In this document: positions 11,009 through 36,925 of the stretch, piece after piece
Numbering within the stretch: position 1 is the stretch's first letter
Layout of the letters: each line of letters begins with the position of its first letter
Assembly: GCA_019739225.1 (NCBI GenBank)
Contig: JAHHDT010000004.1
Coordinates: 168,334 to 232,333, forward strand
Length of the DNA stretch: 64,000 nucleotides
Direction: 5' to 3'
Source: Aquamicrobium sp.
GTDB taxonomy: Bacteria; Pseudomonadota; Alphaproteobacteria; Rhizobiales; Rhizobiaceae
Translations under genes and position numbers: made by a program
Notes under the pieces: model-generated
What the model saw: the letters and a program-made list of their open reading frames with translations, nothing else
Database searches by the model: none
Told to the model about the DNA's origin: nothing

Positions 11009-11014
11009 GGCGCG

Positions 11015-11830
11015 TCAGGCGCCCAGATGCTTGCGCGCCGCATACATGGCCACGGCCGCCGCGTTCGACACGTTGAGCGAGCGGATCGCGCCGGGCATGT
11101 CGAGCCGTGCCAGCGTCGAAACGGTCTCGCGCGTCTTCTGGCGCAGCCCTTTGCCTTCCGCGCCCAGCACCAGCGCGATCCTGGGTTCCGAAAAGCTTCT
11201 CTCGATCTCCGCCGGTCCTTCCGAATCGAGGCCGATCGTCTGGAACCCGGCCGCGTGCAGTTCGCCCAGCGCATCAGCAAGGTTGCGCACTTCGATATGA
11301 TCGATGTGTTCCAGCGCGCCTGATGCGGACTTGGCAAGCACACCCGTCTCGGTCGGGCTGTGACGGGCGGTGGTGATCAGCGCGCGGGCGCCGAAGGCCA
11401 CCGCCGAGCGCATGATCGCGCCGACATTGTGCGGGTCCGTGACCTGATCGAGGACCAGAACGAGGTTCGTGTCGCCAAGCGCGGAGAGCGGCTTCGGCCG
11501 CAACGGTTCGGCCTCCAGAAGCGCACCTTGATGCACGGCGTCGGGATCGGTCAGCCGGTCGATCTCGCGCGGCTCGACGATTTCGGCCGGAAAGGGCAGG
11601 GAGAGCGGTTCGGATAGATCAAGCCGGGCAAGCGCGTTGCGCGTCACCAGCAGCCGCCGCGACTTGCGGGCGGGATTGTCCAGCGCCGCACGCACCGTGT
11701 GCAGCCCGTAAAGCCGCACCAGCCCATCATCGGGGCGCTCGCCTTCCTCGCGCGTGCTGTCGCGATGCGCGCGGCGCAGGCGCGCATAGTGGCTGTCCTT
11801 GGGGGTTCCGGTCTTGCGGTCGCTGCTCAT
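11015..11830 (-). CDS. rlmB: 23S rRNA (guanosine-2'-O)-methyltransferase, RlmB/TrmH family
   Basis: A 271-residue SPOUT-class RNA methyltransferase. The N-terminal substrate-binding domain carries LYGLHTVRAALDNP. The trefoil-knot catalytic domain has the three SPOUT motifs: DPHNVGAIMRSA with the catalytic Arg, ALVLGAEGKGLR, and SLNVSNAAAVAMY, which bind S-adenosylmethionine. Length and N-terminal extension fit RlmB, which methylates G2251 of 23S rRNA; a TrmH-type tRNA target cannot be excluded. The start at 11830 is preferred over an upstream one because the extra residues are basic and unconserved-looking. Confidence 0.82.
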   Translation of the reverse strand: MSSDRKTGTPKDSHYARLRRAHRDSTREEGERPDDGLVRLYGLHTVRAALDNPARKSRRLLVTRNALARLDLSEPLSLPFPAEIVEPREIDRLTDPDAVHQGALLEAEPLRPKPLSALGDTNLVLVLDQVTDPHNVGAIMRSAVAFGARALITTARHSPTETGVLAKSASGALEHIDHIEVRNLADALGELHAAGFQTIGLDSEGPAEIERSFSEPRIALVLGAEGKGLRQKTRETVSTLARLDMPGAIRSLNVSNAAAVAMYAARKHLGA

Positions 11831-12026
11831 GCGGCCTCTATAGCGGCGCGAGAACCGCTTGGATATGGCAGCAAGCACCCGATGGGAAATTCGTCTGAAA
11901 TTGCTGCGCCACGCGGTTGACAGTCAACGGCCATGCCGCCATAAGGCGCTTCGCGGATTTCGGCGGCGGTCTCGACCACCAAAGATGATCCCGCATGTGC
12001 CACGTCGCATGGCTCCGGCGCAGAAC

Positions 12027-12111
12027 GGAGGGATGCCCGAGTGGTTAAAGGGGACGGACTGTAAATCCGTTGGCTATGCCTACGTTGGTTCAAATCCAAC
12101 TCCCTCCACCA
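12027..12111 (+). tRNA. tRNA-Tyr (GTA)
   Basis: Cloverleaf with acceptor GGAGGGA/TCCCTCC, discriminator A and encoded CCA. Anticodon GTA is at 12061-12063 in loop CTGTAAA with stem ACGGA/TCCGT. The long class II variable arm and the TTCAAATC T-loop are as expected for tRNA-Tyr. Confidence 0.97.
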
Positions 12112-12135
12112 CTGCGCATCGGACGCCATGATCAG

Positions 12136-12209
12136 GCGGGTATAGCTCAATGGTAGAGCAGCAGCCTTCCAAGCTGAATATGCGGGTTCGATTCCCGCTA
12201 CCCGCTCCA
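12136..12209 (+). tRNA. tRNA-Gly (TCC), island attachment gene
   Basis: Cloverleaf with acceptor GCGGGTA/TACCCGC, discriminator T and encoded CCA. Anticodon TCC is at 12168-12170 in loop CTTCCAA. Its last 14 bases (12196-12209) are repeated at 36318-36331, so this gene served as the insertion target of the island. The tRNA itself stays intact. Confidence 0.97.
12196..12209 (+). repeat. Left attachment core (att), 14 bp
   Basis: CGCTACCCGCTCCA, the 3' end of tRNA-Gly, repeated in direct orientation at 36318-36331. Tyrosine integrases commonly use tRNA 3' ends this way. Confidence 0.85.
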
Positions 12210-12347: not shown

Positions 12348-13703
12348 ATGCGGCATTACCGGAAGGTCGACCCAGACCGATACCTGCTGCAACGGCAGGG
12401 GATCTACTATTACTGGCGGCGCATTCCCGCCGTCGTCGCAGGGATCGATTCGCGTGGCCGTCTCGTTCGGATGTCGCTCAAGACCGACGACCTCGCCGAG
12501 GCCAGGGCCAAGCGGGATGCGCTGGAAGCGGCCGACAACGATTATTGGCAGGCCCTGATCTTGGATGAGGACGAGGCCAAGGCCCGCCTCCGATACAAGG
12601 CGGCGGCGCGGCGGGCGGAAGCGCTGGGGTTCTCGTACCGGACCAGTTCGGAATTGGCTTCGGGGTCTCTCGCCGAGCTCATCAAGCACGTACTTGCTAT
12701 CCCTCCGGCTGGCGCCCCGCCCGAGGTTGAGGCCGCAGTCTTGGGACGCGAAGACCGGCCGAGAGACAGCTGGTGGCAGGCTTACGAGATATACAAGAAC
12801 GAGATCAAGAAAGAGGAACTTGCAAAAAAGAGCCCCGGGCAGCTGAAACGCTGGGAGAACACTAGGAAGGCCGCGATATCGAATTTCCTTAAGCTGGTGG
12901 GCGAAAAGCCGATCGCGGACACGACGCGCAACGATGGAGTGGCTCTGCACAAGTACTGGCTCGGCAGGGTGGTCCCGGACGACAAGACAAAGAAGCGCTA
13001 CTCTCCAAATTCTGCCAACAAGCAGATTGGCATCCTGGGGAACATTTACTCGGAGTATTTCAAACGTCAGCAGGAGGACAGGAAGAACCCGTTCTCCGAC
13101 CTCAGCTTCAAGGAAAGAGGCGGGCAAAAGAGAAAGCCGTTTGCGTCAGAGTGGATCCAAAGCGCGATTCTCGCTCCTGGCGCTCTGGCCGGCATGAACG
13201 ACGAAGGACGCGGGATCACCTTGGCACAGGTGGAAACAGGCTGCCGCCCGGGAGAACTGTGCAACATCGTGCCGGAAGACATCCTCCTCGATGCGGAAGT
13301 CCCTCACATACACGTCAGGGCCAGAACCGATCCGGGCGACACCAGGGATATTAAGACCGAGCAGTCCGACCGTCGGATCCCTCTGGTCGGCGTTGCCCTC
13401 GAGGTGTTCAAGCGGCACCCGAAGGGATTTCCGCGATACAAGGACAAGGAAGATTCCTACTCGGCTATGGCCAACAAATACCTGAAGGAGAACGGCCTGC
13501 GGCCCAGCCGGCAGCACACCGTGTACTCGTTCAGGCATTCCTTCGAGGACCGCATGCTGGAAGGCGGAATCGACCTGGAGTTGAGGGAGGTTCTGATGGG
13601 GCACAAGCTTGAAAGACCGCTTTACGGCGAGAAGGGCACGCTGCAGTTCCGCCAGAAGGTTCTCAGTGCGATAGCGCTGGAATTCGATCCGGCGATCGTT
13701 TGA
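12348..13703 (+). CDS. Tyrosine site-specific integrase of the island
   Basis: A 451-residue phage-type integrase, first gene after tRNA-Gly, that would catalyse integration and excision at the tRNA 3' end. The N-terminal region (YYYWRRIPAVVAGIDSRG..VRMSLKTDD) resembles the DUF6538 DNA-binding domain. A SAM-like core-binding domain follows, then the catalytic domain: Arg in ETGCRPGELCN (about 299), RRIPLVG, box II in VYSFRHSFEDRM (about 390-400), and the histidine and nucleophile Tyr in GHKLERPLYG (about 418 and 425). All appear intact, so it may be active. GGAGAGGCGG precedes the ATG. Confidence 0.93.
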   Translation: MRHYRKVDPDRYLLQRQGIYYYWRRIPAVVAGIDSRGRLVRMSLKTDDLAEARAKRDALEAADNDYWQALILDEDEAKARLRYKAAARRAEALGFSYRTSSELASGSLAELIKHVLAIPPAGAPPEVEAAVLGREDRPRDSWWQAYEIYKNEIKKEELAKKSPGQLKRWENTRKAAISNFLKLVGEKPIADTTRNDGVALHKYWLGRVVPDDKTKKRYSPNSANKQIGILGNIYSEYFKRQQEDRKNPFSDLSFKERGGQKRKPFASEWIQSAILAPGALAGMNDEGRGITLAQVETGCRPGELCNIVPEDILLDAEVPHIHVRARTDPGDTRDIKTEQSDRRIPLVGVALEVFKRHPKGFPRYKDKEDSYSAMANKYLKENGLRPSRQHTVYSFRHSFEDRMLEGGIDLELREVLMGHKLERPLYGEKGTLQFRQKVLSAIALEFDPAIV

Positions 13704-13789: not shown

Positions 13790-14358
13790 CAGATGAGAAG
13801 AGTGGGCCACAACAGACTGGATCCAGGCGCGGATCCTAGCCCCGACGCTTTGACTGCCCTCAACGGCGAGGCCCCCGGGGGGGCACTCTGGCGCTGTTTG
13901 AAACAGGTTGCCGCGCCTCTGAGTTCTGCGGCCTCGAGTCGACGGACATTTTTCCCGTCGGGAAGATCCCCGATATCGACATTTCGCCACGAGATGTCAG
14001 CCAAAGGGAGCGATGGCACCATCGGCGCATTCCCCTTGTCGGTGTCGCCAGAGAGGTGTTCAGGTGATACCCGAACGGGTTTCCGCAGTACAGGAACCGG
14101 GCCGCCTCCTAACTGAGGGCGGTGAACAGGCACCTGAGGAAGAACGCCGGCTGGCCCTGCCCAGGGCATTCTATCTACTCGTTGAGGCGCTCCTTCTTGA
14201 TGCTGCGCATGCAGCACCGCGGCATCGACGAGGAATCAGGGCAGCCTTGATGGGGCAAAGGTCCGGGTGGCAACCGCCGTTCTTTATGAGAAGTGCCGCT
14301 GAATCTGCGCCAGCAGGTGCTCGGTGCTATGGCTTTCGGGTACGATCCAGCGATCGCG
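13790..14358 (+). pseudogene. Decayed C-terminal half of a second, related integrase
   Basis: Immediately after the intact integrase, translated pieces align collinearly with its catalytic half: WIQARILAP (intact WIQSAILAP), ETGCRASEFCGLESTDIFPV, RRIPLVGVAREVF (intact RRIPLVGVALEVF), YPNGFPQYR, HSIYSLRRSF (intact HTVYSFRHSF) and FGYDPAIA (intact FDPAIV). The frame carries at least four in-frame stops and one frameshift near a run of seven G at about 13877. Divergence from the intact copy is large, so it is a remnant of a different, earlier element at the same tRNA and not a recent duplication. The N-terminal half is absent. Confidence 0.85.
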
Positions 14359-15388: not shown

Positions 15389-17032
15389 ATGAGGCTAATT
15401 CCTGCGCAAATCCTGAACTGCGACTCCGCCGCGGAGAGAAGGGTATTCGGATATCTGGCCGAAGTAGGGTTCAGTTCCTACGACGTGGCCCTCCATTCCC
15501 TCAATATCGGCCACCATGAGTACAAGCGATGGGGCGAGGCCGATTTCTTCCTAATTGGACGGCGCGGGATACTCCTCCTCGAGGTCAAGGGGGGGCGAGT
15601 TGCATGCAAAAATGGGATTTGGGAGTTCACGAACCGGAAGAGCGAGATTAACCGGAAGAAAGAAGGTCCGGCAGAGCAAGCCAAATCCGCCTACTTTTCT
15701 CTGGAGAAGAACTATCTATACCCAAAGTTCTACCAGGAGTTGAATGGCGTCCCCAGGGGCTGGGCGGTTGTTTTCACTGATATCCCGCGACTTGCCAGCG
15801 ACGGTTCGACGCTGTTACCCGAGCATCCCGACGAGATCACCGCCTACGAAGAAGATTGCAAAGGTCACAACACCTTCAAAAATTTCTTGGCGAGAGCCTA
15901 CGATCACTGGGCGACAAAGCAGAAAAGATCGATTGATCTTTCGCCTGAGCTTGTAAAATCAATATCAGATTCCCTGCGTCCGAACTTCGAACGCGTTCCC
16001 TCGCTGAATAGTCAGCTCCGCGACATCGAGCATAGACTCTACCAGTTCACCACCGAGCAGTACGAGAAACTCGATGCGATTGCCGAGAATAATCGAATAC
16101 TTATTGCGGGTGGCGCTGGGACTGGAAAGACCTTCGTTGCCGCTGCATGCGCTCGTTACGAAGCAGCCGAAGGGCGTTCCGTCCTTTTCGTAACCAGAAG
16201 TCATTATCTTGCTAGCTTCTTGGCTAACCAGGGATTGCCCGTGGGAGTTACGATCGCAGCGTTCGACGAAATTCCCAAGTATGTTGAGGAAAAGTCAGTC
16301 TGGGATGTCTTGATCGTGGACGAGGGCCAAGACCTCTGTTCCCTCGAATGCATCGACCTGATCGACAAGGTGGTGGTGGGAGGATGGGAGAATGGACGTT
16401 GGAGGTGGTTCGGCGACCCCAACCATCAGGTATCGCCGAGCTTTCCATTGGAACAAGAGTGCCTCGACTACGTGAAGTCCCAGGGCGTGGTGTCGAATCT
16501 AAAAAACAACATTCGCAACGCCGGAAAGATCGTCGAGGCCATCAAGATCCTGGCGGGCGCAGACGTCGGTAAGCCAAGTAGCAAGCCCGATAGCGGCACC
16601 GTCGATATCCAGCTGGTCGACGTGGAAAGCGAAGTTCTTCCCCGCGCGGCAGCAGTGGTGCGAAAGTGGTTGAGCGACGATACACAACTGCCGCGCAATT
16701 CGATCGCAATGCTGGTGCCGAACGAAAGCGATGTTTCGAGAGCCGTCGAGCTTCTCTCCACCAGGAACGTGAGGTCAGAAGCATTGAGCAAGCGTGCCTT
16801 GGGCGGCAAGCCCCGGGACTGTGTTCTCGTCGCGACGATCGAGGATTTCAAGGGTTTGGAGCGACCACTCATCTGCGTGGCCGGATTGGGGCAAGAGCAC
16901 GGGTTTGCGTCTAGCGCTTACAAGGCAATCTCACGAGCTAACCATGCTTTGGCGCTCGTGGCAATGCGTCGGTGCGTGGCTGAGCTGAAGGAAAACGCCG
17001 CTCTGCAAATCACGGGGCATAGGGAGAATTGA
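15389..17032 (+). CDS. NERD nuclease-domain fused to SF1 (UvrD-like) helicase
   Basis: A 547-residue two-domain protein and first gene of the defence operon. Residues 14-120 form a NERD domain, a nuclease-related fold: Glu16 in AAERRVFGYL, then EADFFLI (50-56) and LLLEVKGG (62-69) give the acidic/Lys pattern of PD-(D/E)XK-like enzymes. From 225 on is a superfamily 1 helicase: Walker A GGAGTGKT (241-248), motif II VDEGQD (310-315), FGDPNHQ, motif IV-like NNIRNA and a C-terminal AISRANHAL (motif VI region). DNA unwinding coupled to cleavage is the likely activity. GGGGGGAA precedes the ATG. The stop abuts the ATG of the drmA-like gene. NERD helicases are not components of described DISARM. Confidence 0.85.
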   Translation: MRLIPAQILNCDSAAERRVFGYLAEVGFSSYDVALHSLNIGHHEYKRWGEADFFLIGRRGILLLEVKGGRVACKNGIWEFTNRKSEINRKKEGPAEQAKSAYFSLEKNYLYPKFYQELNGVPRGWAVVFTDIPRLASDGSTLLPEHPDEITAYEEDCKGHNTFKNFLARAYDHWATKQKRSIDLSPELVKSISDSLRPNFERVPSLNSQLRDIEHRLYQFTTEQYEKLDAIAENNRILIAGGAGTGKTFVAAACARYEAAEGRSVLFVTRSHYLASFLANQGLPVGVTIAAFDEIPKYVEEKSVWDVLIVDEGQDLCSLECIDLIDKVVVGGWENGRWRWFGDPNHQVSPSFPLEQECLDYVKSQGVVSNLKNNIRNAGKIVEAIKILAGADVGKPSSKPDSGTVDIQLVDVESEVLPRAAAVVRKWLSDDTQLPRNSIAMLVPNESDVSRAVELLSTRNVRSEALSKRALGGKPRDCVLVATIEDFKGLERPLICVAGLGQEHGFASSAYKAISRANHALALVAMRRCVAELKENAALQITGHREN

Positions 17033-20000
17033 ATGCTTGGCAGAGAGAAGATCCTCCAGGAAACGCGAGATAGGTTGATCGGTCCTGGTCTAGGAAAACC
17101 GGGCCCAAGTGGAACGCATGCCGACGAGATCATCGAGGGTCGCATGAGCTTGGCCTACATGCAGGGAATGCTCTTTCCCCGCGCCGAACGGGCCACTCCA
17201 GACCTCGGTGGGGACGATGCCGAGGATGCTTCAGACGAAGACGCCGACGACCCGCTCAGCATGTCCAACGCCATGCTTCCTGCCTCCATGGGGCTGTCGC
17301 TCTGCATTTCATCCGGCAGCACGGTAAAAATCACCGTTGAGGCGGCTGTCTATGCCTCGGTCGAGGCTCGAGAAGTTGTTGAAGAGCGCGATCTAGGCGA
17401 TGAAGATGTTTTGAAATCTGGCGAAGCGGAAAGAACGGCTAGCAGTGCCGATATCCAGCCGGATCCAGCGAGGGGGACTAAAGCGGCGAAGGGGAGAACG
17501 AGGGCAATGGGCCGATGGCAGCGACGCCAGCTGGAGGCTTCGACTGCGGAAATTGGCGCTGAAGGACTGAATGCGACCCTCGTGCTCGAGAAGAACGCGA
17601 TATTGGAGGTGCTTTCTCGAACGCTAGCGAGCGGCGACATCCTCTTGACGGTGAGCTTGTCCAACATTCACGAGGCGAAAAACGCGAGATCGAGCGAGCG
17701 TACTCTTTATCAGGTGTCGATATGCGCCGAGCCTGTTGATGGGCAGATCCTCAAATATCCTGCTGCACGGTATGTCCCCCCCTCCGAAGAAGAGCGCGAA
17801 CTTCGCGTCATCTACGGAGAGCAACGTCCTTACGCCGTCGGCCATGGTGTCGCCACCGACTGGAAACTCCAGAACGGTCGCTGCGAATGGGTAAAAACCG
17901 AGGCTCTCCCCACGGCCCACGTATGGCGTCCGGTCTTCGATAATCTTTCGATCACGCGAGACGGCGAACAGATCACCTTTGACGACGACGAGTTGTTCAA
18001 GATCGCGCCCTTGGCTCGTGGAGACGTGAGCGGTTCCGAGTTAATCAACCGCCTCACCGGCTTAGTGGAGTTCTACGAGGAGTGGATAGGTTCCCTATCC
18101 GCGCTGCCGATCGATGGCTACCTGAAGGGCGACGCCTCTAGGATGATAGGACGCTGCGAGCGCAGTGCAGCACGAATGAAGCACGGTATCCGCATACTGG
18201 AACGCGATCCGGATATCGCCCGCTGCTTCATGCTCGCCAACCGCGCTATGCTCATCTCTATGTCACACGCCGCGCGTGCCTCGGGCATCGGCCGCGATGA
18301 CGGGCTGCAAGGGCCTTTTGAGCTTGGATGGGCAGAGTCTGCCCCGATCGATTACTTTGCTAACCCCGCTCAATGGCGTCCGTTCCAGCTTGCCTTCTTC
18401 CTTCTCGTGCTTCCTTCGCTTGCGGGCGAGGAGCTCACAGATCGGGAACTGGTGGATGTTATATGGTTCGCGACGGGTGGTGGTAAAACCGAGGCATATC
18501 TGTTCGTATCCGCGTTCGAGCTTTTCAGGAGGCGCATCGTAGATGGTAAATCTGGTGGCGGGACCGGGGTCATCAACCGGTACACTTACCGGTTCCTGAC
18601 CGCAGACCAGTTCCAGCGCACTGCAGGCGTGATATGCGCCATGGAAATGGTAAGGCGGGAACTGGAGAAGGTGGGCGATCACTCCGTCGGCGAGGAGGAG
18701 TTCTCGATCGGCTTGTTCGTGGGAGGCGACGTTAGCCCGAATTCATTCGCGGGCGACAGGGACGGAGCGCTCACGCCGACCCAGGAGCTATTTGATTCAA
18801 GCCAACCCCGGGATGCCAATCCGTTTCCCATCGAGAGCTGCCCATCGTGTGGAACGCTACTTGTCCCTGCGGAGAAAAAGACGAAGCCAGACGGAAGCCC
18901 AGACGAGTCATTCTACGGGTTCCTAGCAACAGCAAATAATTTTACGACGCGGTGCCCGGAGGAAGACTGCGCATTTCACGAACACCTTCCCGTCTATTTC
19001 ATTGACGAACAGTTGTTGCGTGCGCCGCCATCGTTCCTGCTGGGAACCATCGACAAGTTCGCAATGATCCCCTGGAAGGAAAACGGTGGGACTTTGCTCG
19101 GATTCGGGACGGGTAGGTCGTCACCCTCGCTCGTTATCCAAGACGAACTGCACCTGATCTCCGGTCCGCTGGGTACCTTGGCAGGCATATACGAGGCCGC
19201 TTTCGAAACGCTCATGGCGACGAGTGGAAAACCTCCGAAAGTAATTGCTTCCACGGCAACCATCCGGAATGCGTCGGTCCAGTGCCGCAGGATTTATGGC
19301 AGAGCCTCCATGGTATTTCCATCGCCTGGGTTGCGCGCGGAGGATTCCTTTTTCTCTAAGCTCGATACAGGTAACAAGGAGAGATCGAGGTTATACGCGG
19401 GCGTCATGGCGCAAGGGCTACGATCGACGGTCGCTGCCTCATGGACCATGGCAACACTTCTCCAGTCTTCGTTCGAGCTCGTTCAAGCAGGTGCGCTCAC
19501 TTCAAACGAAGCAGATGCTTACTGGACGCTCGTTGCCTACCACAACAGTAAACGAGAACTCGGTCGGATAGTTAACGCGACGCGCGACGAGATCCCGACC
19601 CGCATGAAAGTCTACGCGTCGGATGAGACGCTGGAGCGGCCGTCCAACTTCCAAGTCCTCGAGTTGAAAGCGCATGCAGAAACACCCGTTCCGAGAGCGA
19701 GGCAACTGCTAGCGCGGCGCCATAGGTCGGACTATCCCGCCATCGACGTGGTTCCCTGCACCAATATCATCTCCGTTGGCGTCGACATCGACCGTCTTGG
19801 CTTGATGATGGTGAACGGTCAGCCCAAGCTAAGCGCCGAATATATCCAGGCAACGAGCCGTGTCGGACGCGGCGTGGTCCCCGGCCTGGTAGTGGCTGCC
19901 TATTCTCCAAGCAAGCCGCGGGACCGTTCACACTACGAGTCCTTTCGTGATTACCACGAGCGCTTCTACAGCTTTGTCGAGCCGACGAGCGTCACACCTG

Positions 20001-20425
20001 GCGCCTTACCCGCAATCGAGAGGGGGCTGCACGCCGCGCTAGTGACGGTAGTGCGACATGGAACGACGCTGAAGCGAAATTCGGACGCTAGGCAATTTAA
20101 TCCGGACGAGCCCTTCGTCGCGTTGGCTATCGAGCGTCTCGAACAGCGCCTGTTGAAAGCCTACGATCGACCAAACGAATCGGAAGAGCGAGCACGCATT
20201 TCGGCGAAGCTTGCCGAGAAGGTTTCCGAGTGGGCGGGATGGGCCCGCACCGTCGAAGGCCTCCAGTACACCTTCGCGAGCAAACAACAGCGACCACACT
20301 TACTCGTGCGTTACGGGAACAAAAAAATCGACGGCGCAGGATGGCATACGCTCCAGTCCATGCGCCACGTCGACAAGGAAATCACGCTGGAGGACATGGG
20401 AATTGCCCAAGCCAACAATCCGTAG
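17033..20425 (+). CDS. drmA: DrmA-like SF2 helicase (DISARM core)
   Basis: An 1130-residue helicase. The N-terminal 460 residues have no motif I recognise apart from an acidic tract (DDAEDASDEDADD). Helicase motifs then follow: ATGGGKTEAY (motif I, about 479-488), QDELHLI (motif II, about 702), ASTATI (motif III), and SVGVDIDRLG and QATSRVGRG (motifs V and VI, about 939). Between motifs I and II is a zinc-binding insert with SCPSCG (about 601) and CPEEDC (about 641). This layout, together with a DUF1998 partner directly downstream, matches DrmA of DISARM, which loads with DrmB onto unmethylated invading DNA. The ATG has GGGAGA upstream. Other DUF1998-linked helicases, such as Druantia E, are larger single proteins. 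Confidence 0.82.
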   Translation: MLGREKILQETRDRLIGPGLGKPGPSGTHADEIIEGRMSLAYMQGMLFPRAERATPDLGGDDAEDASDEDADDPLSMSNAMLPASMGLSLCISSGSTVKITVEAAVYASVEAREVVEERDLGDEDVLKSGEAERTASSADIQPDPARGTKAAKGRTRAMGRWQRRQLEASTAEIGAEGLNATLVLEKNAILEVLSRTLASGDILLTVSLSNIHEAKNARSSERTLYQVSICAEPVDGQILKYPAARYVPPSEEERELRVIYGEQRPYAVGHGVATDWKLQNGRCEWVKTEALPTAHVWRPVFDNLSITRDGEQITFDDDELFKIAPLARGDVSGSELINRLTGLVEFYEEWIGSLSALPIDGYLKGDASRMIGRCERSAARMKHGIRILERDPDIARCFMLANRAMLISMSHAARASGIGRDDGLQGPFELGWAESAPIDYFANPAQWRPFQLAFFLLVLPSLAGEELTDRELVDVIWFATGGGKTEAYLFVSAFELFRRRIVDGKSGGGTGVINRYTYRFLTADQFQRTAGVICAMEMVRRELEKVGDHSVGEEEFSIGLFVGGDVSPNSFAGDRDGALTPTQELFDSSQPRDANPFPIESCPSCGTLLVPAEKKTKPDGSPDESFYGFLATANNFTTRCPEEDCAFHEHLPVYFIDEQLLRAPPSFLLGTIDKFAMIPWKENGGTLLGFGTGRSSPSLVIQDELHLISGPLGTLAGIYEAAFETLMATSGKPPKVIASTATIRNASVQCRRIYGRASMVFPSPGLRAEDSFFSKLDTGNKERSRLYAGVMAQGLRSTVAASWTMATLLQSSFELVQAGALTSNEADAYWTLVAYHNSKRELGRIVNATRDEIPTRMKVYASDETLERPSNFQVLELKAHAETPVPRARQLLARRHRSDYPAIDVVPCTNIISVGVDIDRLGLMMVNGQPKLSAEYIQATSRVGRGVVPGLVVAAYSPSKPRDRSHYESFRDYHERFYSFVEPTSVTPGALPAIERGLHAALVTVVRHGTTLKRNSDARQFNPDEPFVALAIERLEQRLLKAYDRPNESEERARISAKLAEKVSEWAGWARTVEGLQYTFASKQQRPHLLVRYGNKKIDGAGWHTLQSMRHVDKEITLEDMGIAQANNP

Positions 20426-22265
20426 CGCCCAGCTCATAAGCCCCTTTGGCATTGGATCGCTGTGCGAGATCGATGGGCAGTCATTCTTTGTCCGTGGCAC
20501 CGGCAGTTGGGCGAAGGGTTACAACCTCGAGAAGATCGAGGTTGGTTCGCTCACCGACTGGCTTCGGCCACGCCAGCTGAAGACGCCGACGGAATCTGTC
20601 GCGATCTTGCGTTTCCCGCATTGGCACTTCTGCCCCGAGTGCCGAAAGATGATTAGGTGGACGCCGGATAAGGACCGGGAACTGGTCAGAGACGACGGCA
20701 GCCTCCCCCGGCCGACTTGTGATGGTGCCAAGTGCAAGAACGCACGTTTGGTGCCCATGCGGTTCGTGGCGGCCTGCGACAACGGACACATCGACGAGAT
20801 TGATTGGTACTGGTGGGCTCATAAAGGTCACGAACCTGCGCAACACGGAGCTTGTAGTCGCAATACTTCACGACTGCATTTCGAAGTGACAGGCAAGAGC
20901 GGCGGCGACTTCTCTAGCATGGTAATCCGATGCAGTTGCGGAGCCTCGGGAAACTTGGAGGGCATAGCGGACGGTCCCCTTCCGCAGAAATGCCGTGGAT
21001 ACCAGCCGGGGGAGCCCTCCTCGACCTGCGTCGACCCGGAAAACAAGAAGAATCCCGGAGCACCCAAGCCTCTCTTCATGGAGCCACGGGGATCCAGCTC
21101 GCTCCACTACGCCTCCGTGATTTCCGCACTCGATATCGACGGCGACACGGAGAAGGACGGCTGGGAAAAGCTCCGCGCCGACGCGATTTACCAGAGTACC
21201 CTGCAAATGGCGGCTAGCTTGGTCCGATTACAAGCAGGCGACACGTCGCTGGCAATCGAGTCAAGCCGCGCAGTCCTCGAGACCCGCGCGGACGAAGTCA
21301 GTATCAGCATTGATGATGCCCTTAGTTGCTTCGAAGCGGATTTGGGCGCTAGTCCCGCAAACGTGTCACCCGCCCCTCCAGCGGTCGAGATCAGCCAGCA
21401 GCGAATCCTTGCCCAAGAGTTCCCGGTTCTCGCGAATCCAAAGGGGCAAAATTCTCGCTGGCTAATCGCGCGCCCCACTAAACCGACGGCTCGTTTTGCT
21501 CTCGATGAGCTCTTCGAACGGTTCGTAAGGGTGGAGCGTCTTCGTGAGGTTCGCGCTTTTCGTGGTTTCCAAAGGCGGAACGTTTCCGAAAACCACGCAA
21601 TGATAACCCCCTCTCTGGGGCGACAACAGCCGGACTGGCTGCCTGCCATGATGGTCCTTGGTGAGGGAGTATTTTTGGAGTTCTCCAACTCGTCAATAGC
21701 GGCCTGGAGGCAAGCAAATGAACCCGCAATCGAGGAATTTACGCATTCTCACCTCGTGAGCGCTGAAGCCCTTGGGTTACCTAACCGGATGGGGTTTAAT
21801 GCAAACCCGACCTTCATCATGGTTCATAGCTTTGCCCACCTATTGCTGAACCAGTTGTCCTTTGACTGCGGTTACTCCTCTACCTCACTTAGGGAGCGAA
21901 TATATTGTGGCACTGACTCGCAGCCATACGCCGGCCTGTTGATCTACACGGCAGATTCGGATGCCGAGGGGTCGATGGGCGGGCTGAGCGAGATGGGAGC
22001 GCCGGAAAGACTTGAAGATGTCATATATCGCGCCGTTTCTCGCAGCCAATGGTGTTCAGGGGACCCAGTTTGCCGTGAACTCGACGCGCAGGGGGTGGAC
22101 GGACTGAACCGCGCAGCGTGCCACGCTTGCTCTTTGGTAGCTGAGACGAGCTGCACCTACTCAAACGTTCTCTTGGATCGGGTTCTCGTGTCCGGAGACG
22201 GGCGAAGGAATGGTCGAGGCAACCGCGAACCCATCGGATATTTCAACAAGATGCTCGAGCCCTAG
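20403..22265 (+). CDS. drmB: DrmB-like DUF1998 protein (DISARM core)
   Basis: A 620-residue partner of the DrmA-like helicase. The N-terminus RSAQLISPFGIGSLCEIDG is the DrmB hallmark. Zinc motifs follow (HFCPECRKM about 74-82; CDGAKC), then FVAACDNGHIDEIDW near 123. The C-terminal DUF1998 domain begins near HSFAHLL (about 473), with GYSSTSLRERIYCG, SMGGL and clustered cysteines (CHACS about 572). The only start that fits these homologies is TTG at 20403, inside the end of drmA, with GGAGG nine bases before it. The 23-bp overlap and rare start imply translational coupling and a fixed ratio to DrmA. The open frame continues upstream, but that part is the shadow of drmA. Confidence 0.82.
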   Translation: MPKPTIRSAQLISPFGIGSLCEIDGQSFFVRGTGSWAKGYNLEKIEVGSLTDWLRPRQLKTPTESVAILRFPHWHFCPECRKMIRWTPDKDRELVRDDGSLPRPTCDGAKCKNARLVPMRFVAACDNGHIDEIDWYWWAHKGHEPAQHGACSRNTSRLHFEVTGKSGGDFSSMVIRCSCGASGNLEGIADGPLPQKCRGYQPGEPSSTCVDPENKKNPGAPKPLFMEPRGSSSLHYASVISALDIDGDTEKDGWEKLRADAIYQSTLQMAASLVRLQAGDTSLAIESSRAVLETRADEVSISIDDALSCFEADLGASPANVSPAPPAVEISQQRILAQEFPVLANPKGQNSRWLIARPTKPTARFALDELFERFVRVERLREVRAFRGFQRRNVSENHAMITPSLGRQQPDWLPAMMVLGEGVFLEFSNSSIAAWRQANEPAIEEFTHSHLVSAEALGLPNRMGFNANPTFIMVHSFAHLLLNQLSFDCGYSSTSLRERIYCGTDSQPYAGLLIYTADSDAEGSMGGLSEMGAPERLEDVIYRAVSRSQWCSGDPVCRELDAQGVDGLNRAACHACSLVAETSCTYSNVLLDRVLVSGDGRRNGRGNREPIGYFNKMLEP

Positions 22266-22267
22266 GA

Positions 22268-23557
22268 ATGCGCTTTCCGTCTCTTAGCGACTTGGACCGG
22301 GAGCAGCGGCGCATCTATGGAAATGCGCCCGCTGATGGCGCGATCCTGGTCGTCGGACCTCCGGGGACCGGCAAAACAGTCATGGCCTTTCATCGCGCAC
22401 AGAAGCTTGAGAAACTTGGCCAAGCGCCCCACGTCATCATGTTCAACAAGGTGCTCGCCAAGTACACGTCCAACCGATCGGGCATCGCGCCCACAATCGA
22501 CGTGAGCACTATGCATTCCTGGGCAGGGAAATGGTGGAAACGAGCGACGGGCTCTCGGCCGCCAATGCTCGCCGGCGATAGATGGACCCACGACTGGGGG
22601 GAGATTTGCGCGAAGGCGCTCAACGCCTTTCACAATGGTGCAAGTCGTCGCTTCACATGGGGGCATCTGATCATCGATGAAGGGCAAGACTTCCCTCCGC
22701 AGATGTATATGGCTCTCGGGATGATGCTGAAGCGGATGGCGGCCGACGGAGTCTCAGTGCAGGTAACGATCTTTGCAGATGACAACCAACGCTTGCAGGC
22801 GGACCGCAACAGCCGAATCAAAGACATCAAGAACTACCTATTCGTCGGTGGTGCGCGTGATCGGGTCTTCGGCTTGAAGAAGAATTTTAGAAACACTCGT
22901 CCCATCGCCGAGTTTGCTAGGCATTTCCAAGTCGGCAACGAAAGCGGCATTGCCGAAGTCCCCGACACTGACGGCGAGAACCCCCACGTGGTATTCGCCG
23001 CGAATGATAGGGACATTGCCGAATTCATTGCTCGCAAGGCTAAGATAAATCCTGGCAAGCAGGTGGGTGTTATCGTTTACGGCGGCAGCTCCGCGGTAAA
23101 ACGCGCATACAATCAGGTAAAAATGAGGATTAGCGAAATATCTAAGCCACCTCGCTTACAGATGTATCTAAGCGGCCACGCTACCCACACCGATCAGGCC
23201 TTAGACTTTGAGAGCGGGAACACGATCACCTTCTTGCATGCGCAATCCGCCAAGGGACTTGAATTTGACGTTGTGTTTTTCCTTGGAATGGAAGGGATGA
23301 ATGTCGACACATCGGGATTTTTCAACGAGAGGATGGCTCTTTACGTCATGAGTTCCCGCGCGCGCTCCGAACTCTACATTGCCTTCAAAGATATTGATCC
23401 AGCAGTAGGCTTGCCCGCTTCCTACAGACTTCTACCCCGACCGAGTTCTAAGCTGTGTCGGTATGTTGGACTGGGGACCCTGGAACAATGCGTCCCGGTG
23501 TTCGAAGCATCCATTGAGGCAAATGACGATTTCGAAGAATTGGAGGCTGCCGAGTGA
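22268..23557 (+). CDS. Second SF1 (UvrD/Rep-like) helicase
   Basis: A 429-residue compact superfamily 1 helicase. Visible motifs: Walker A GPPGTGKT (30-37), Ia-like FNKVLAKY, IIDEGQDF (motif II, about 135), FADDNQRLQ (motif III), NFRNTRPIAEFA (motif IV, about 206), SAKGLEFDVVFFLG (motif V, about 328-341) and SRARSELYIAF (motif VI, about 362). There is no nuclease domain and little room for the 1B/2B insertions of full UvrD. The ATG lies 2 bp after the drmB stop; the end overlaps the next gene as GTGA. It belongs to the same operon as the NERD-helicase, so two SF1 motors flank the DrmAB pair. Confidence 0.87.
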   Translation: MRFPSLSDLDREQRRIYGNAPADGAILVVGPPGTGKTVMAFHRAQKLEKLGQAPHVIMFNKVLAKYTSNRSGIAPTIDVSTMHSWAGKWWKRATGSRPPMLAGDRWTHDWGEICAKALNAFHNGASRRFTWGHLIIDEGQDFPPQMYMALGMMLKRMAADGVSVQVTIFADDNQRLQADRNSRIKDIKNYLFVGGARDRVFGLKKNFRNTRPIAEFARHFQVGNESGIAEVPDTDGENPHVVFAANDRDIAEFIARKAKINPGKQVGVIVYGGSSAVKRAYNQVKMRISEISKPPRLQMYLSGHATHTDQALDFESGNTITFLHAQSAKGLEFDVVFFLGMEGMNVDTSGFFNERMALYVMSSRARSELYIAFKDIDPAVGLPASYRLLPRPSSKLCRYVGLGTLEQCVPVFEASIEANDDFEELEAAE

Positions 23558-25215
23558 CCGAAGGTAGCGGGGAACTCGAACTGGATCTTGGACCGAGGAA
23601 AAATGTCGACGGCTCTGTCCTGAAGCTCCTTGTGCCAATGCACGCTGACAATTTCGCCCTTGCGTTGGCCGCGGGCTACGTTGGTGGCTCTTTGAAAGTC
23701 GATGCTGCGCAGGATCTCCAGACGCATGCAGGCGATGGCCTGATCGGATTCAGAGGAGAGGTTCCATCTTGGGCTATCTTGGAAGGGGAGCCGGGGGACA
23801 GGGTGCTTCTTTGCATCGAACAAAATGGTGAAGAGGTGTCCAAGCCTGGAAGAATGGAGACGCTCGACGGACCATTGAGAGTGACCAGTTTTCAGGCAGC
23901 ATATTTTAAGGACGAAGCCTCGCTCGTGAATTTCAATGCGTCCTACGACGCGTTTCCGGACGTTGCTATCGGTATAGTAAAGTGCCGGACAAACTGGCCG
24001 GTTTACGCCGAGAATGACCGTCCTGAAGGTATGCAGATCGAGCGAATAGGCGTTCCCAACCGGCGCCAAGACCTCGACTTTCACGGTGGGTTTGGGGCAG
24101 GTGTCGTCGAGCTGTTGACCCAAGGCACGTTCGATGAGGCGATTCGCAAGTTTCTTCAAACGCCGGGCAGTGACCTGTCGGGGACTGCGCGAAACCTCCT
24201 GATGTCGCTTGAGCCGCGGTCCTCGCAAGTCGACATCGCGATATGGTGCGCCACGACCGAAGCGCTGCGTGCCCGCTTTGGCAAGAGGGGCTTCGATCGA
24301 CGAGATTTTCTTCACGATGTGGAGGATCGTCTAGTAAGTCGGGGGGAGGAGGTGGATTCATGGATTCGCGGATGCCAAAAAGTAATCGATGCCGAGATCG
24401 ATATACCTAGCTTGGCCGACGGCGAGAAAATCGGGCGGCGTGCCGCGCTTGCCATTATCCTGTCCCACGAGCCATCGGGATTGGAGGAATTGGAAAGCAA
24501 TCTAGAAGCTGGCCCGCATGTGCGCGCGTTGGTGACGACTTCCGTCTATGCCTTCTCGGGACTTGCTCGGATTGATGAAGCGCTCAAGTCGCCTGCGTCG
24601 AGGATGGACGCGGTACTCGATATAGGAGAGTGCGTGGCCGCAGGCGTTCCGGTTCAGATTGATATCGAGACATTGCGTACGGCGAATGACCTTACCCGCC
24701 ACCAAGCCGTAAAGGTGGCAGGAAATGCGGTGCTCCACAGGGAGACTGAGCCGCCGGCCTATATGGTCATGCTCAAGGCTCGAATTCAGGAGGCCGGGTA
24801 TAAGGTGGAAGTCGACGGTTCTTCTGGGAAAATAGGGTTACGGCGGGGAGTCGCTACGGGCGAGTTTATCATGGTGGAAGACTGCCCCCGCTCGACGCCA
24901 GGTGACCCAATAATAAACCTCGTACTACCGATCACTGTTCTGGGCGCCCGCCCGTCTCTCGCATCCCTAAAGAAATTGATGGCCGCTGCGTGGAAGCACG
25001 CAACAACCGTGGCTCTGAGGGAAGTCGGTGAGAATGAAGAAGTGGTCGCCATGGCAAGCTTGCCGCTCGCCACGCTGGATCGCGATGAACTCAATTTCCA
25101 TGTTGAGCGTCTGCTTCAGGTTTCCGCTGAGTTGAGTGGGCATACGCGCAGCGGGCGACGAATTAGAAAGCCGGAGTATAAATCATTGGGAATAAAGCCA
25201 GATCGTGGCAGATAA
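23554..25215 (+). CDS. Unrecognised 553-residue protein, last gene of the defence operon
   Basis: I recognise no family. The start is GTG overlapping the previous stop (GTGA), so it is cotranslated with the helicase. The N-terminal third reads like a beta-rich fold (KLLVPMHADNFALALAAGYV; GLIGFRGEVPSWAILEGE). The middle is mostly helical (GFGAGVVELLTQGTFDEAIR; DRRDFLHDVEDRL). The C-terminal part is alpha/beta with FIMVEDCPRSTPGDP and a last basic stretch (SGRRIRKPEYKS). I find no Walker motif, no HxK(x4)D phospholipase motif, no obvious nuclease signature and no membrane helix. Its position is where DISARM would carry DrmC, but it is not DrmC by motif. A role as sensor, effector or specificity subunit is inference only. 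Confidence 0.7.
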   Translation: MTEGSGELELDLGPRKNVDGSVLKLLVPMHADNFALALAAGYVGGSLKVDAAQDLQTHAGDGLIGFRGEVPSWAILEGEPGDRVLLCIEQNGEEVSKPGRMETLDGPLRVTSFQAAYFKDEASLVNFNASYDAFPDVAIGIVKCRTNWPVYAENDRPEGMQIERIGVPNRRQDLDFHGGFGAGVVELLTQGTFDEAIRKFLQTPGSDLSGTARNLLMSLEPRSSQVDIAIWCATTEALRARFGKRGFDRRDFLHDVEDRLVSRGEEVDSWIRGCQKVIDAEIDIPSLADGEKIGRRAALAIILSHEPSGLEELESNLEAGPHVRALVTTSVYAFSGLARIDEALKSPASRMDAVLDIGECVAAGVPVQIDIETLRTANDLTRHQAVKVAGNAVLHRETEPPAYMVMLKARIQEAGYKVEVDGSSGKIGLRRGVATGEFIMVEDCPRSTPGDPIINLVLPITVLGARPSLASLKKLMAAAWKHATTVALREVGENEEVVAMASLPLATLDRDELNFHVERLLQVSAELSGHTRSGRRIRKPEYKSLGIKPDRGR

Positions 25216-25309: not shown

Positions 25310-26121
25310 ATGTCCGCCACTGAATCGCTCCCTTCCGATCTCGCCGCCGCCCACGCGATGATCCTCGCGGAGCGCGCCGCGCGCATCGAGGCCGAAGCGC
25401 TTGCCGCCCGCGCGGCGGCCGTCAGCTCCGGGACGGAGGCGCTGATTGCGCGGCTGAAGCTGGAGATCGAGAAGCTCCGGCGCGAACTCTACGGCAGCCG
25501 CTCGGAGCGGAAGGCACGGCTGCTCGATCAGCTTGAGATGCAGTTGGAGGATCTGGAGGCGAACGCAACCGAGGACGAACTGGCGGCGGAGCGCACGTCG
25601 CGCGCCACGACGGTGCAGTCGTTCGAGCGTCGCCATCCATCGCGCAAGCCGTTCCCGGAGCACCTACCGCGCGCGCGCATCGTGATCGCCGCTCCCGAGA
25701 ACTGCGCTTGCTGCGGCTCGCGCCGCTGGTCGCCGAGTCGGAAGGGTGGATACGTGACGAGCGGGCCAAGCTGTCGCGTCACGCGCCCACCGCACAGGCT
25801 ATAGACTACATGCTCAGGCGCTGGGAGGGGTTCAGCCGTTTCCTCGCAGACGGGCGCATCTGCCTGACCAACAATGCAGCCGAGCGGGCGCTGCGCGGTC
25901 TCGCCCTCGGCAGAAAGTCCTGGCTCTTCGCCGGCTCCGAACGAGGTGCCGAGCGTGCGGCCGTCATGTATACCCTCATCGGCACGGCAAAGCTCAACGA
26001 TGTCGACCCGCAGGCTTGGCTCGCCGATGTGCTCGCCCGCATCGCCGATACGCCGCAGGGCCGGCTGAGTGATCTCTTGCCGTGGAACTGGACGGCGCAA
26101 TCTGCAAGACTGGTGGCATGA
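25310..26121 (+). pseudogene. IS66 transposase (TnpC) with large internal deletion
   Basis: The 5' part encodes the IS66 N-terminus: a leucine-rich coiled region (ALIARLKLEIEKLRRELYGS) and the zinc-finger half CACCGSRR. At about 25712-25730 the homology jumps, in another frame, to the C-terminal part of the same protein: PLVAESEGW, RWEGFSRFLADGR, TNNAAERALRGLALGRKSW and LLPWNW. The middle, including the first two catalytic Asp of the DDE triad, is gone; the Glu in NNAAERAL remains. Frame change and deletion coincide, so no functional transposase can be made. Neither tnpA nor tnpB is present. Confidence 0.88.
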
Positions 26122-26735
26122 GCCACGCCGATCGCATCGCCCGCATCATGATCCAACTCGATGACTGGCAACCCGTCATATGGCGGCGCGCCGAGGTGCC
26201 GCTGACGGCAACGCTCAAGGCCTTGCACGACGTCATCCAGGCGGCAATGCCGTTCGACGACTATCACCTGTTCGAGTTCCGTGCCGACGGCAAGCGCTAC
26301 GCCATTCCAGAGCCCGAATGGGACAGCCTGCGCGACAGAACCTACTCGGCGAAGACGACGCGGCTCGGAACGCTGGTCGATCGCGGCATCACGCAACTGG
26401 CCTACACTTACGACTTCGGTGACGACTGGCGGCACACGATCACCATCGAGGCAATCGCCGACGCCGATCCCGCTGTCGAGTATCCCCACTACATCGACGG
26501 TGCCGGCCGCGCGCCACCCGAAAATGTCGGCGGCATCCCCGGCTTCGAATTGTTCCTCGACGCGATCACCGATCCCAAACACGAGCAGCATCGCGAACTC
26601 AAACGCTGGCACAGCCGCCCGTTCGCTCCCGCACATCCTGCTGTAGACGAAATCCAGACCCGGATCAAAAAGCTCGCCAGACGCCGCGCTCTCGGCAAGG
26701 CCGGCTTCGAGAAAAGCCGCAGTCAGGCACGCTGA
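26118..26735 (+). CDS. Plasmid pRiA4b ORF-3-like protein
   Basis: A 205-residue protein of the pRiA4b ORF-3 family, named from an Agrobacterium plasmid and of unknown biochemical function. Family hallmarks are QLDDWQPVIWRRAEVPLTAT, LHDVIQAAMPFDDYHLFEF, YTYDFGDDWRHTITIE and AGRAPPENVGGIPGFE. The ATG overlaps the IS66 transposase stop (ATGA), so it was cotranslated with the transposase. This family is often found as passenger next to IS66 transposases, which suggests it came with the insertion and is not part of the defence cluster. Confidence 0.85.
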   Translation: MSHADRIARIMIQLDDWQPVIWRRAEVPLTATLKALHDVIQAAMPFDDYHLFEFRADGKRYAIPEPEWDSLRDRTYSAKTTRLGTLVDRGITQLAYTYDFGDDWRHTITIEAIADADPAVEYPHYIDGAGRAPPENVGGIPGFELFLDAITDPKHEQHRELKRWHSRPFAPAHPAVDEIQTRIKKLARRRALGKAGFEKSRSQAR

Positions 26736-27122: not shown

Positions 27123-27590
27123 TTAACCTCGGCTGCGGCGGATATCTGGGCTTGCCACCTTTGTTTGGGGGATAGGCGCGATGTCGGCGGCTAGTTCAGC
27201 ACTTTTACAACCTACCTTCACAGGACTGCCCAGTTCGCACTCCCAAACGACTATGACGCGCCAACCCGCCGCGGCAAGTGCCTCTCTGTTCCTAACGTCT
27301 CGCGACTGGTTGCGATCGAACTTGTTAATCCAAAAATCGGTGTTGGTTTTCGGAGTGGTCGCGACTTTGCATCCAGGGTGACGATGCCAAAAGCAGCCGT
27401 GTACAAAGATGACAGTTCTATGCTTCGCCAGAACGATATCAGGCTTGCCCGGCAGGTGACGGCTGTGCAGGCGGAAGCGAAAACCAAGCCGGTGCAAAGC
27501 CTTCCTAAGAGCTATCTCAGGCTTGGTGTTGCTGGAGCGAATCCTCGACATCCGCTCCGAGCGCTCGGCGGGTGTTAACGTGTCTGCCAC
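27123..27590 (-). CDS. vsr: Very short patch repair endonuclease Vsr
   Basis: A 155-residue Vsr endonuclease that nicks DNA 5' of T in T:G mismatches created when 5-methylcytosine deaminates. Visible: the N-terminal RMSRIRSSNTKPEIALRKAL, the catalytic region LPGKPDIVLAKHRTVIFVHG with the metal-binding Asp, and CFWHRHPGC with the conserved His/Cys zinc ligands. WRVIVVWECEL follows. The start is GTG at 27590 with GGGAG upstream. It lies 163 bp downstream of, and on the same strand as, the C5-methyltransferase whose mutagenic effect it would counter. Confidence 0.94.
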   Translation of the reverse strand: MADTLTPAERSERMSRIRSSNTKPEIALRKALHRLGFRFRLHSRHLPGKPDIVLAKHRTVIFVHGCFWHRHPGCKVATTPKTNTDFWINKFDRNQSRDVRNREALAAAGWRVIVVWECELGSPVKVGCKSAELAADIAPIPQTKVASPDIRRSRG

Positions 27591-27753: not shown

Positions 27754-29094
27754 TTACGCGCTTGCCACGACAGGAAGAGTTCGAGCGCTTGCCGCAAGGG
27801 ATCGAGCACCCGCAACCTCTTCGAGCAGCTTGCATACGGCAACACCGATCGCCCTGCCGAGTAATGGAGGCACAGCGTTGCCGACCTGAGTATAACGCGG
27901 ACACTCCTTCGCGCGCCGGTGACCACCCGTAGTGAACTTGCCCTCGAATTTGAACCAGTCAGGAAACGACTGGAGCCGAGCGGATTCGCGAACCGTTAGG
28001 ATCCGCGGTTCGGAGTAGTGCAGAATATCGTCAGGTAGGGTCGTGACCGTGGGTGCCGGCTTGTTGCCATCCATTGGATAGATGCGGTGCTTCTTAAGGC
28101 CGTACCGACTGCGGTCTTTGTCGTTCATCCTGACGCCCTGCGCGCACTCTTTAATGATAAGAGCGAACCTCTTCTCAACATGTTCACGGTGGCGAGCGAG
28201 CCGCATGCTATTCATCGCTCCATCGTAGCCGTCCCGCATCAGATCCTGATAGCGCGTGAGCTTAGAGGGCCTGACATACCTAAGCTCCTGAAAGCCAGGA
28301 CCTGAATCTGGATCAGAACAATTGATCCTCTCTCGGTTGGCCCCATTGTGGTCATTGGTCTCCAGATCGGACAGGGCATTTCTGGCCGAAACTTGTTCTG
28401 ACAACCCGAAAAGACGAAGCTGCTCGCTTCGTGCGATTTCCAGCAATTCAAAAACCCTGCCCGGGTTGTCGGTCAGCTCCCTACGAACTCCGATGGCAAT
28501 CAGCCGAGAGCGCTTCTGTGGTATGCCAAAGCGCGATGAATCTATTCGCTCTGCTCTGACGCAGTAGCCCGCTATGGCGAGACTATCCACGAGCTTATCA
28601 AAGTAGGATTTTCGTTTTGTTTTGGGCGCACCCGAAACTGGCATTTCTACGACGTTGCTACGCAAATGGGCAACTTGCATACCAGGCACGTTCTCAATAA
28701 TCACACACTTCGGTTGGAGGGCCTCCACCACCTCAACGTATTTCTCAAACATGAGATTTCGTGGGTCATCCTCTATGCGCCTGCCAGCAAAACTAAAACC
28801 CTGGCAAGGAGGGCCTCCAGCAAGAACATCGATCTTGCCCCGCAGGTTTTCTACCAAATTCCTCTTATGGATGGCCAAGAGAGTTTCAATATCCCAATGC
28901 GTTTTTTCAAGCCATTCCGGCCAGTCTAGTTTATAGCGTGAATGGCGCTCAATAAGATTGGAACTAAAGGTCTTAAACGCCATACTGTCGCGCTCAATCG
29001 CGAAAATCCCCTTCAGTCCGGCTTGCGACAGGCCAAGCGATAGCCCGCCACAACCTGCGAACAAATCCGCGAAAGTATAAAGTTTCTGATTCAA
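27754..29094 (-). CDS. DNA (cytosine-5)-methyltransferase
   Basis: A 446-residue C5 methyltransferase. Motif I is FADLFAGCGGLSLGL (8-22). Motif IV is GGPPCQGFSFAG with catalytic Cys97, motif VI is ENVPG (about 134-138), motif VIII is QKRSRLIAIGVR and motif X is YTQVGNAVPP near the C-terminus. The target-recognition region between VIII and X does not reveal specificity. The start is TTG at 29094, supported by GAGGTG six bases upstream. With vsr it forms a modification pair lacking an obvious own restriction enzyme. DISARM class 2 uses a C5-methylase (DrmMII) to mark host DNA, so this gene may serve the DrmAB operon on the far side of the IS66; that link is inferred. Confidence 0.93.
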   Translation of the reverse strand: MNQKLYTFADLFAGCGGLSLGLSQAGLKGIFAIERDSMAFKTFSSNLIERHSRYKLDWPEWLEKTHWDIETLLAIHKRNLVENLRGKIDVLAGGPPCQGFSFAGRRIEDDPRNLMFEKYVEVVEALQPKCVIIENVPGMQVAHLRSNVVEMPVSGAPKTKRKSYFDKLVDSLAIAGYCVRAERIDSSRFGIPQKRSRLIAIGVRRELTDNPGRVFELLEIARSEQLRLFGLSEQVSARNALSDLETNDHNGANRERINCSDPDSGPGFQELRYVRPSKLTRYQDLMRDGYDGAMNSMRLARHREHVEKRFALIIKECAQGVRMNDKDRSRYGLKKHRIYPMDGNKPAPTVTTLPDDILHYSEPRILTVRESARLQSFPDWFKFEGKFTTGGHRRAKECPRYTQVGNAVPPLLGRAIGVAVCKLLEEVAGARSLAASARTLPVVASA

Positions 29095-32592: not shown

Positions 32593-32599
32593 CGCAGCC

Positions 32600-36317: not shown

Positions 36318-36331
36318 CGCTACCCGCTCCA
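36318..36331 (+). repeat. Right attachment core (att), 14 bp
   Basis: CGCTACCCGCTCCA, an exact direct repeat of the tRNA-Gly 3' end at 12196-12209. It marks the right boundary of the island. Confidence 0.85.
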
Positions 36332-36921: not shown

Positions 36922-36925
36922 GATC

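Follow-up and report, generated by a model that had tools for sequence, protein, structure and literature searches.

The systems closest to the operon described here are those of the DISARM group, for which PADLOC distinguishes two types, one composed of DrmA, DrmB, DrmC, DrmD, and DrmMI, and the other of DrmA, DrmB, DrmC, DrmE, and DrmMII (PMC9252829, in its available sections). The operon lies at positions 15389–25215 of a 64,000-nucleotide stretch of an Aquamicrobium sp. genome (GenBank assembly GCA_019739225.1, contig JAHHDT010000004.1, positions 168,334 to 232,333), the whole of which is referred to below as the window; it encodes DrmA and DrmB homologues, a NERD domain fused to a superfamily 1 (SF1) helicase, a stand-alone SF1 helicase, and a fifth protein. 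Judged by the sequences of its proteins, the operon is a member of a distinct DISARM-like lineage. In the available sections of PMC9142583, the DrmAB complex of DISARM is described as autoinhibited, opened by DNA with a 5′ overhang, and apparently repressed by methylation, DrmC, its phospholipase D (PLD) nuclease, as dispensable and often missing, and the nuclease behind DNA destruction as unknown. The text parts of a YprA-family survey (PMC12458937) place many uncharacterised classes within a DISARM-like clade and name a NERD nuclease for TALON only; the accessible part of a review (PMC10952713) lists NERD for other systems only, and that of the Shield paper (PMC10270631) presents an RmuC-domain protein as a non-standard partner in Pseudomonas DISARM-like operons.

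The five open reading frames (ORFs) of the operon are tightly packed within 9.8 kb (Table 1). With its TTG start at 20403, drmB overlaps drmA by 23 bp, and genes 4 and 5 overlap by 4 bp, so that both the positions and the spacing agree with an earlier note on this DNA, made from the sequence alone, which had proposed a DISARM-like operon with a non-standard gene set. The product of gene 2 matched the PADLOC DrmA model at 1.2e-178, and that of gene 3 matched DrmB_fam NF038324 with 374 bits, above the subfamily cut-off of 240, and MZB/DUF1998 at 3.7e-8. In the PDB, the only match of either DrmA (8.5e-123) or DrmB (3.2e-57) at an E-value of 1e-3 was the sequence of the DISARM DrmAB structure 7s9v/7s9w, and the identity of the pair, proposed in the note from motifs, thus withstood the profile searches. 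The two homologues are separate, adjacent genes, the arrangement by which DISARM (the DrmAB lineage) is recognised. DrmA contains GGGKTE, DELH, and QATSRVGRG, which we take to represent the named motifs of superfamily 2 (SF2) helicases. Gene 1 matched NERD PF08378 (5.2e-7) and AAA_30 (7.9e-8) in Pfam and RTasNERD-Hel in PADLOC (8.7e-30). In an alignment of 23 rows, two of them (L005 and L090) incomplete, the NERD residues E50 (20/23), D52 (22/23), and E65 and K67 of the E65-x-K67 motif (21/23) are conserved, the Walker A residue K247 is kept in every row, and the Walker A/B motifs are conserved in the related rows. Gene 4 matched UvrD_C (2.9e-9), and gene 5 gave no family match in Pfam, PADLOC, or NCBIfam.

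The operon answers to neither the type I nor the type II DISARM definition of PADLOC. As the note had claimed, DrmC, DrmD, DrmE, and DrmMI do not appear among the PADLOC matches listed for the five proteins (for gene 4 the best 25 of 26); nor do they among those listed for 13 island proteins in all, which comprise these five, the integrase of the surrounding island, and seven further ORFs (for one of these, the C5 cytosine methyltransferase discussed below, the best 25 of 61). No Snf2 or N6 methylase match was shown for the five proteins. A search for DrmC in the genome itself, run without a positive control, was empty, and a hidden Markov model (HMM) built from one DrmC sequence was positive in none of the loci where DrmB is followed by an SF1 helicase; it found 6 of the 11 class 1 DISARM loci, one of them its own source, and is therefore not fully sensitive. 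With DISARM class 1 (DrmD, a DrmMI/MmeI-type methyltransferase, DrmA, DrmB, and DrmC) the operon shares the separate neighbouring DrmA and DrmB and the match to 7s9v; it differs in having a NERD-helicase, an SF1 helicase, and the fifth protein instead of any match to DrmC, DrmD, or DrmMI, and in a DrmA that falls into a separate, fully supported clade. With class 2 (DrmE, DrmMII, DrmA, DrmB, and DrmC) it shares DrmAB and a C5 methyltransferase, but lacks a match to DrmE or DrmC, and its methyltransferase is closer to general type II models (MTase_II, 1.3e-77) than to DrmMII (1.8e-46). TALON, as given in the text parts of PMC12458937, consists of a YprA-like helicase, a NERD nuclease, TPR-CSD, and TBP, and likewise pairs a helicase of the YprA family with a NERD nuclease; its YprA helicase is ARMADA-like, whereas the window's DrmA and DrmB are split and of the DISARM type, and Pfam scans of the five proteins matched neither TPR-CSD nor TBP. 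ARMADA (YprA helicase, BrxHII, and PglX-like methyltransferase, with the UvrD-family ArmD in type II) also combines YprA-family and UvrD-family helicases in one operon, but the window's five proteins show no BrxHII or PglX match and have the split, DISARM-type DrmA/DrmB. No named system of this composition was found in the models and literature searched, which include the text parts of PMC12458937, a paper whose figures and supplements may draw one.

The extent of the lineage was assessed by maximum-likelihood phylogeny of DrmA from 40 of the 45 loci, five being omitted. A single clade with support of 100/100 unites the 13 DrmA proteins from loci in which DrmB is followed by an SF1 helicase, and shows their common descent at the level of sequence. 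The 11 DrmA proteins of class 1 DISARM form a separate clade (100/99); the tree held no identifiable class 2 locus, and the separation thus applies to class 1. Four loci of the order UvrD-DrmA-DrmB-NERD constitute a third group (100/100), and for the eight loci in which a NERD-helicase precedes DrmA and the SF1 helicase is lacking, the tree requires three changes. NERD-helicase matches above 150 bits are present in 23 of the 45 loci (in L095 on the opposite strand) and in none of the 11 class 1 loci. Since NERD-helicases accompany DrmAB in other branches as well, the lineage is marked by the SF1 helicase and the fifth protein; of the NERD-based DrmAB type postulated in the note, the separate lineage stands, but NERD is not its mark. 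Large proteins of 1107–1792 amino acids (aa) precede other DrmAB operons (L049, L051, L054, and L059), with a NERD-helicase in between in L051, L054, and L059. Of the two that were scanned, that of L051 matched DUF1232 alone and that of L059 weakly matched a mad8 model, while the one of L049, read by eye, combines PLD with an SF2 helicase.

When the alignment of the fifth protein was used as the query, five loci (L002–L006) were returned, of which L002 ends at a contig end and has no upstream sequence. The order, judged on the other four, is the same five-gene order in each: Novosphingobium (L003), Paracoccus (L004), Sphingomonas (L005), and Porphyrobacter (L006). Their identity to the window, with short pieces excluded, amounts to about 76–87% for gene 1, 67–85% for DrmA, 77–89% for DrmB, and 78–85% for gene 4, while gene 5, at 56–72% with L002 counted too, is the fastest-changing part of the operon. 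The same 23-bp and 4-bp overlaps are found in L004 and L006, and the tblastn starts in L003 are consistent with them. In Sphingomonas sediminicola KACC 15039 (L005, 1828–11625) the operon genes are broken over several frames, by decay or sequencing error. A survey for DrmA at an E-value of 1e-20 or better gave hits in 9/385 genomes of the class, 13/398 of the phylum, and 11/369 of another class in the phylum. The five-gene order also occurs in a genome of another class (G913, locus L088), with a DrmA 48% identical over residues 160–1119 and a gene 5 recognised by the fifth-protein HMM with 108 bits; the order is thus not unique to the genome of the window. Gene 5 of L088 is followed by an HhH-GPD base-excision glycosylase (15671–16348). 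Plasmid P4 of Deinococcus gobiensis (L011) has the same order, with genes 1–4 at 30–35% identity. In L049, L089, and L093 the order is permuted to DrmA-DrmB-SF1-fifth protein-NERD-helicase, and two Photobacterium plasmids (L007 and L010) and the genome locus L058 carry DrmA-DrmB-SF1-fifth protein. The SF1 helicase of L007 (14977–16350) bears a DUF5710-like insert (3.7e-5, under the cut-off), for which the window's SF1 helicase has no match, and upstream of DrmA in L058 (12598–17870) are located a HEPN protein, a vWA-MoxR pair, and a sigma-54 activator.

The comparison of the fetched stretches shows, at the level of gene neighbourhood, that a C5 cytosine methyltransferase is linked to the lineage. 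It is present in all six loci of the window's type (split over two frames in L005), in 2/3 Photobacterium-type loci, in the one Deinococcus-type locus, in 2/4 UvrD-type loci, in the one related locus, in 7/8 NERD-first loci, and in 0/3 other loci. The class 1 loci have such a gene in 1/11 cases and MmeI-type enzymes in 11/11. For 6/6 against 1/11, Fisher's test gives p = 0.0006, a value that overstates the contrast, because four of the six loci are close relatives. In L003–L006 the C5 gene is divergent, just upstream of the operon, and orthologous (58–89%), and the one after the operon in L058 matched the PADLOC DrmMII model at 1.4e-96. Two C5 genes are present in the 5.35-Mb genome that contains the window, the second matched as two pieces of one open frame. 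The note, which had overlooked both the methyltransferase and the Vsr nuclease of the island, held that two SF1 helicases and the fifth protein take the places of the usual DISARM parts; this agrees with the results for DrmC, DrmD, and DrmE, but not for the methyltransferase.

The fifth protein is predicted to contain a DarT-like, an ADP-ribosylglycohydrolase-like, and a YbjN-like domain, with middling scores. Its first two domains are predicted to resemble in fold the DarT/2CompART ADP-ribosyltransferases and the ARH3 hydrolases, from which it differs in the lack of a Pfam match, in the unconserved catalytic glutamate, and in the shortened ARH part. Neither DarT PF14487 nor 2CompART PF22546 matched any of the 22 rows of family A1 up to an E-value of 10, the window's protein included, while among the distant relatives of family A3 a 2CompART match was obtained for 10/34 rows, up to an E-value of 0.1. 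Profile comparison shows homology between the fifth-protein families of three branches: A1 combined with L088 matched A3 at 2.1e-5 (reversed control, 0.35) and A2 combined with L058 at 1e-6. A gene annotated as DarT-family and located right after the Azospirillum UvrD-DrmA-DrmB-NERD operon (L009, 15069–15671) is a stand-alone relative of the gene 5 fold.

Beyond families, gene linkage, and descent, which are read from the data, each functional step is one that we infer. We give an even chance to the proposal that DrmAB, the NERD-helicase, the second SF1 helicase, and the fifth protein restrict invading phage or plasmid DNA by the following mechanism. In the manner of the solved DISARM complex, DrmA and DrmB would be loaded onto foreign DNA at its single-stranded 5′ ends. 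The host's DNA, being double-stranded and carrying the methylation of the linked C5 methyltransferase, would escape. The single-stranded track would be lengthened by the two SF1 helicases and cleaved by the PD-(D/E)xK nuclease of the NERD domain that one of them carries, in place of a DrmC nuclease. The fifth protein may act as a non-catalytic sensor or adaptor, whose ADP-ribosyltransferase-like, DNA- or NAD-binding domain licenses the helicases. A more specific version, in our opinion improbable, envisages a third DISARM class in Proteobacteria (and in Deinococcota and Actinomycetota, where the fifth protein is altered or lacking), in which a subunit uniting DarT-like and ADP-ribosylglycohydrolase-like (writer and eraser) parts would switch DrmAB from idling to helicase-nuclease attack, the signal being NAD+, ADP-ribose, or ADP-ribosylated single-stranded DNA.

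Several observations weigh against the proposal. The C5 methyltransferase was not found in the fetched stretches of the three permuted loci and the Streptomyces locus (L008). The window's own C5 gene lies downstream of the operon and belongs to another subgroup (31% identity to that of L003 and 42% to that of L088); it is on the opposite strand, 2.5 kb past gene 5, and is not co-transcribed with the operon. The score of gene 2 against the DISARM equivalog DrmAS of NCBIfam (NF038325), 785.9 bits, is under the cut-off of 950, and the protein is therefore not called DISARM by NCBI. For the fifth protein of L011 similarity to the window's gene 5 is undetectable, and the fold similarity of gene 5 itself is middling (Z of 7.8 and 9.1), its role being guessed from the fold. 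The NERD-helicase is absent from the fetched stretch in 4/13 loci of the SF1 clade: L007, L010 (with only 2.7 kb of upstream sequence), L058, and L008, where DrmA-DrmB-SF1 is accompanied by neither a NERD-helicase nor the fifth protein. NERD should thus not be taken as the cutter throughout the lineage, and the note's claim that a NERD nuclease supplies the cutting goes further than these loci allow.

Of these loci, L007, L010, and L058 favour an alternative that we regard as rather doubtful, in which the core that loads on, unwinds, or blocks phage DNA consists of DrmA and DrmB together with the SF1 helicase and the fifth protein. The NERD-helicase would then be an accessory open to exchange, and degradation would be left to host nucleases. 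This alternative would also fit the NERD-helicases found with DrmAB where the SF1 helicase and the fifth protein are missing, and the dispensability of DrmC in DISARM (PMC9142583, in its available sections); against it, all four loci found by gene 5 alone and having upstream sequence contain the NERD-helicase, which is kept in two gene orders with its nuclease residues conserved. Less probable still is a fifth protein acting as the effector, an active ADP-ribosyltransferase that would mark DNA or a host target once DrmAB senses phage, and that its own ADP-ribosylglycohydrolase-like domain would hold in check or reverse. At the hand-aligned position of the DarT catalytic glutamate, this residue is missing in 7/22 A1 rows and is not conserved in A3, the histidine is replaced by asparagine in most A3 rows, and the ARH-like part is short (about 195 residues vs 330) and presumably lacks the second acidic motif.

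YprA-family helicases include repair proteins (PMC12458937, text parts), and the operon could accordingly be a repair cassette, with an MrfAB-like pair of YprA helicase and nuclease, and not a defence system; the split DrmA/DrmB, the location on a mobile island, the sporadic presence of the fifth gene (1/40 searched genomes, the window's own), and the DrmA relatives on 85 plasmid records make this very unlikely. Islands collect defence genes, so that unrelated cargo might stand side by side by chance, a reading rendered extremely improbable by the conserved order, the overlaps, and the single DrmA clade. If the restriction proposal holds, the lineage would represent a natural experiment in which the DrmAB sensor stays and the effector changes, a NERD nuclease-helicase, a second SF1 helicase, and an ADP-ribosyltransferase-like protein standing in place of DrmC, and it would join DISARM-type restriction with ADP-ribose-signalling folds, a pairing not encountered in the literature searched. 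DrmAB apparently serves as a platform whose partners are many and exchangeable. Four members of the clade lie on annotated plasmids, where the annotation reads 'helicase-related protein' in three cases and 'DEAD/DEAH box helicase family protein' in the fourth; given such generic annotations and a DrmA under the NCBI cut-off, systems of this lineage are probably under-counted.

Table 1. Features of the operon and its island (positions in the window).
Feature	Position	Strand	Basis or remark
tRNA-Gly (TCC), integration target	12136..12209	+	last 14 bases 12196-12209 = left repeat
Tyrosine recombinase/integrase of the island (Phage_integrase, DUF6538)	12348..13703	+	profile scan
Gene 1: NERD domain fused to SF1 helicase, 547 aa	15389..17032	+	translation, profiles
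Gene 2: DrmA-family SF2 helicase, 1130 aa	17033..20425	+	profiles, PDB sequence match
Gene 3: DrmB (DUF1998/MZB), 620 aa, TTG start	20403..22265	+	profiles, PDB sequence match
Gene 4: stand-alone SF1 (UvrD-like) helicase, 429 aa	22268..23557	+	profiles
Gene 5: fifth protein, 553 aa, GTG start	23554..25215	+	no family match
Gene 5, residues 18-152: DarT/ADP-ribosyltransferase-like domain (predicted)	23605..24009	+	model and relatives
Gene 5, residues 172-365: helical domain resembling ADP-ribosylglycohydrolase ARH3 most closely, but shorter (predicted)	24067..24648	+	model
Gene 5, residues 400-531: YbjN/secretion-chaperone-like fold (predicted)	24751..25146	+	model
Vsr-type nicking endonuclease, beside the methyltransferase	27123..27590	-	profile scans
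C5 cytosine DNA methyltransferase (PF00145, 3.5e-52), proposed sixth component	27754..29094	-	profile scans
Right copy of the 14-bp tRNA-Gly 3′ end, border of the island	36318..36331	+	exact repeat match

The operon is carried by an island inserted at a tRNA-Gly gene, as the earlier note had supposed. The 14-bp 3′ end of this gene is repeated exactly at the far border of the island (0.02 matches expected by chance, with up to one mismatch), and in another genome of the genus (G004) the site is empty: the match to 9500–12209 (92.7% identity) directly joins that to 36310–37831 (94.2%), with the repeat at the junction, and the element is thus 24.1 kb in size. Between 12 and 25 kb the GC content is 52–60%; in the flanks it mostly exceeds 60%. 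Just 3′ of the intact integrase, a decayed piece (13880–14330, + strand), read by eye, resembles the C-terminal half of a second tyrosine recombinase, which suggests an earlier insertion at the same tRNA gene. Between the operon and the methyltransferase lies a gene for a pRiA4b ORF-3-like protein (26082–26735, + strand; PF07929, 6.9e-56). The remaining island block (29435–35935, − strand) comprises a metallophosphoesterase, an M41-peptidase-like protein, an AAA ATPase, and an 812-aa protein without a Pfam match; since the metallophosphoesterase matched the PADLOC candidate PDC-S10 at 1.7e-16, this block may be a second defence module.

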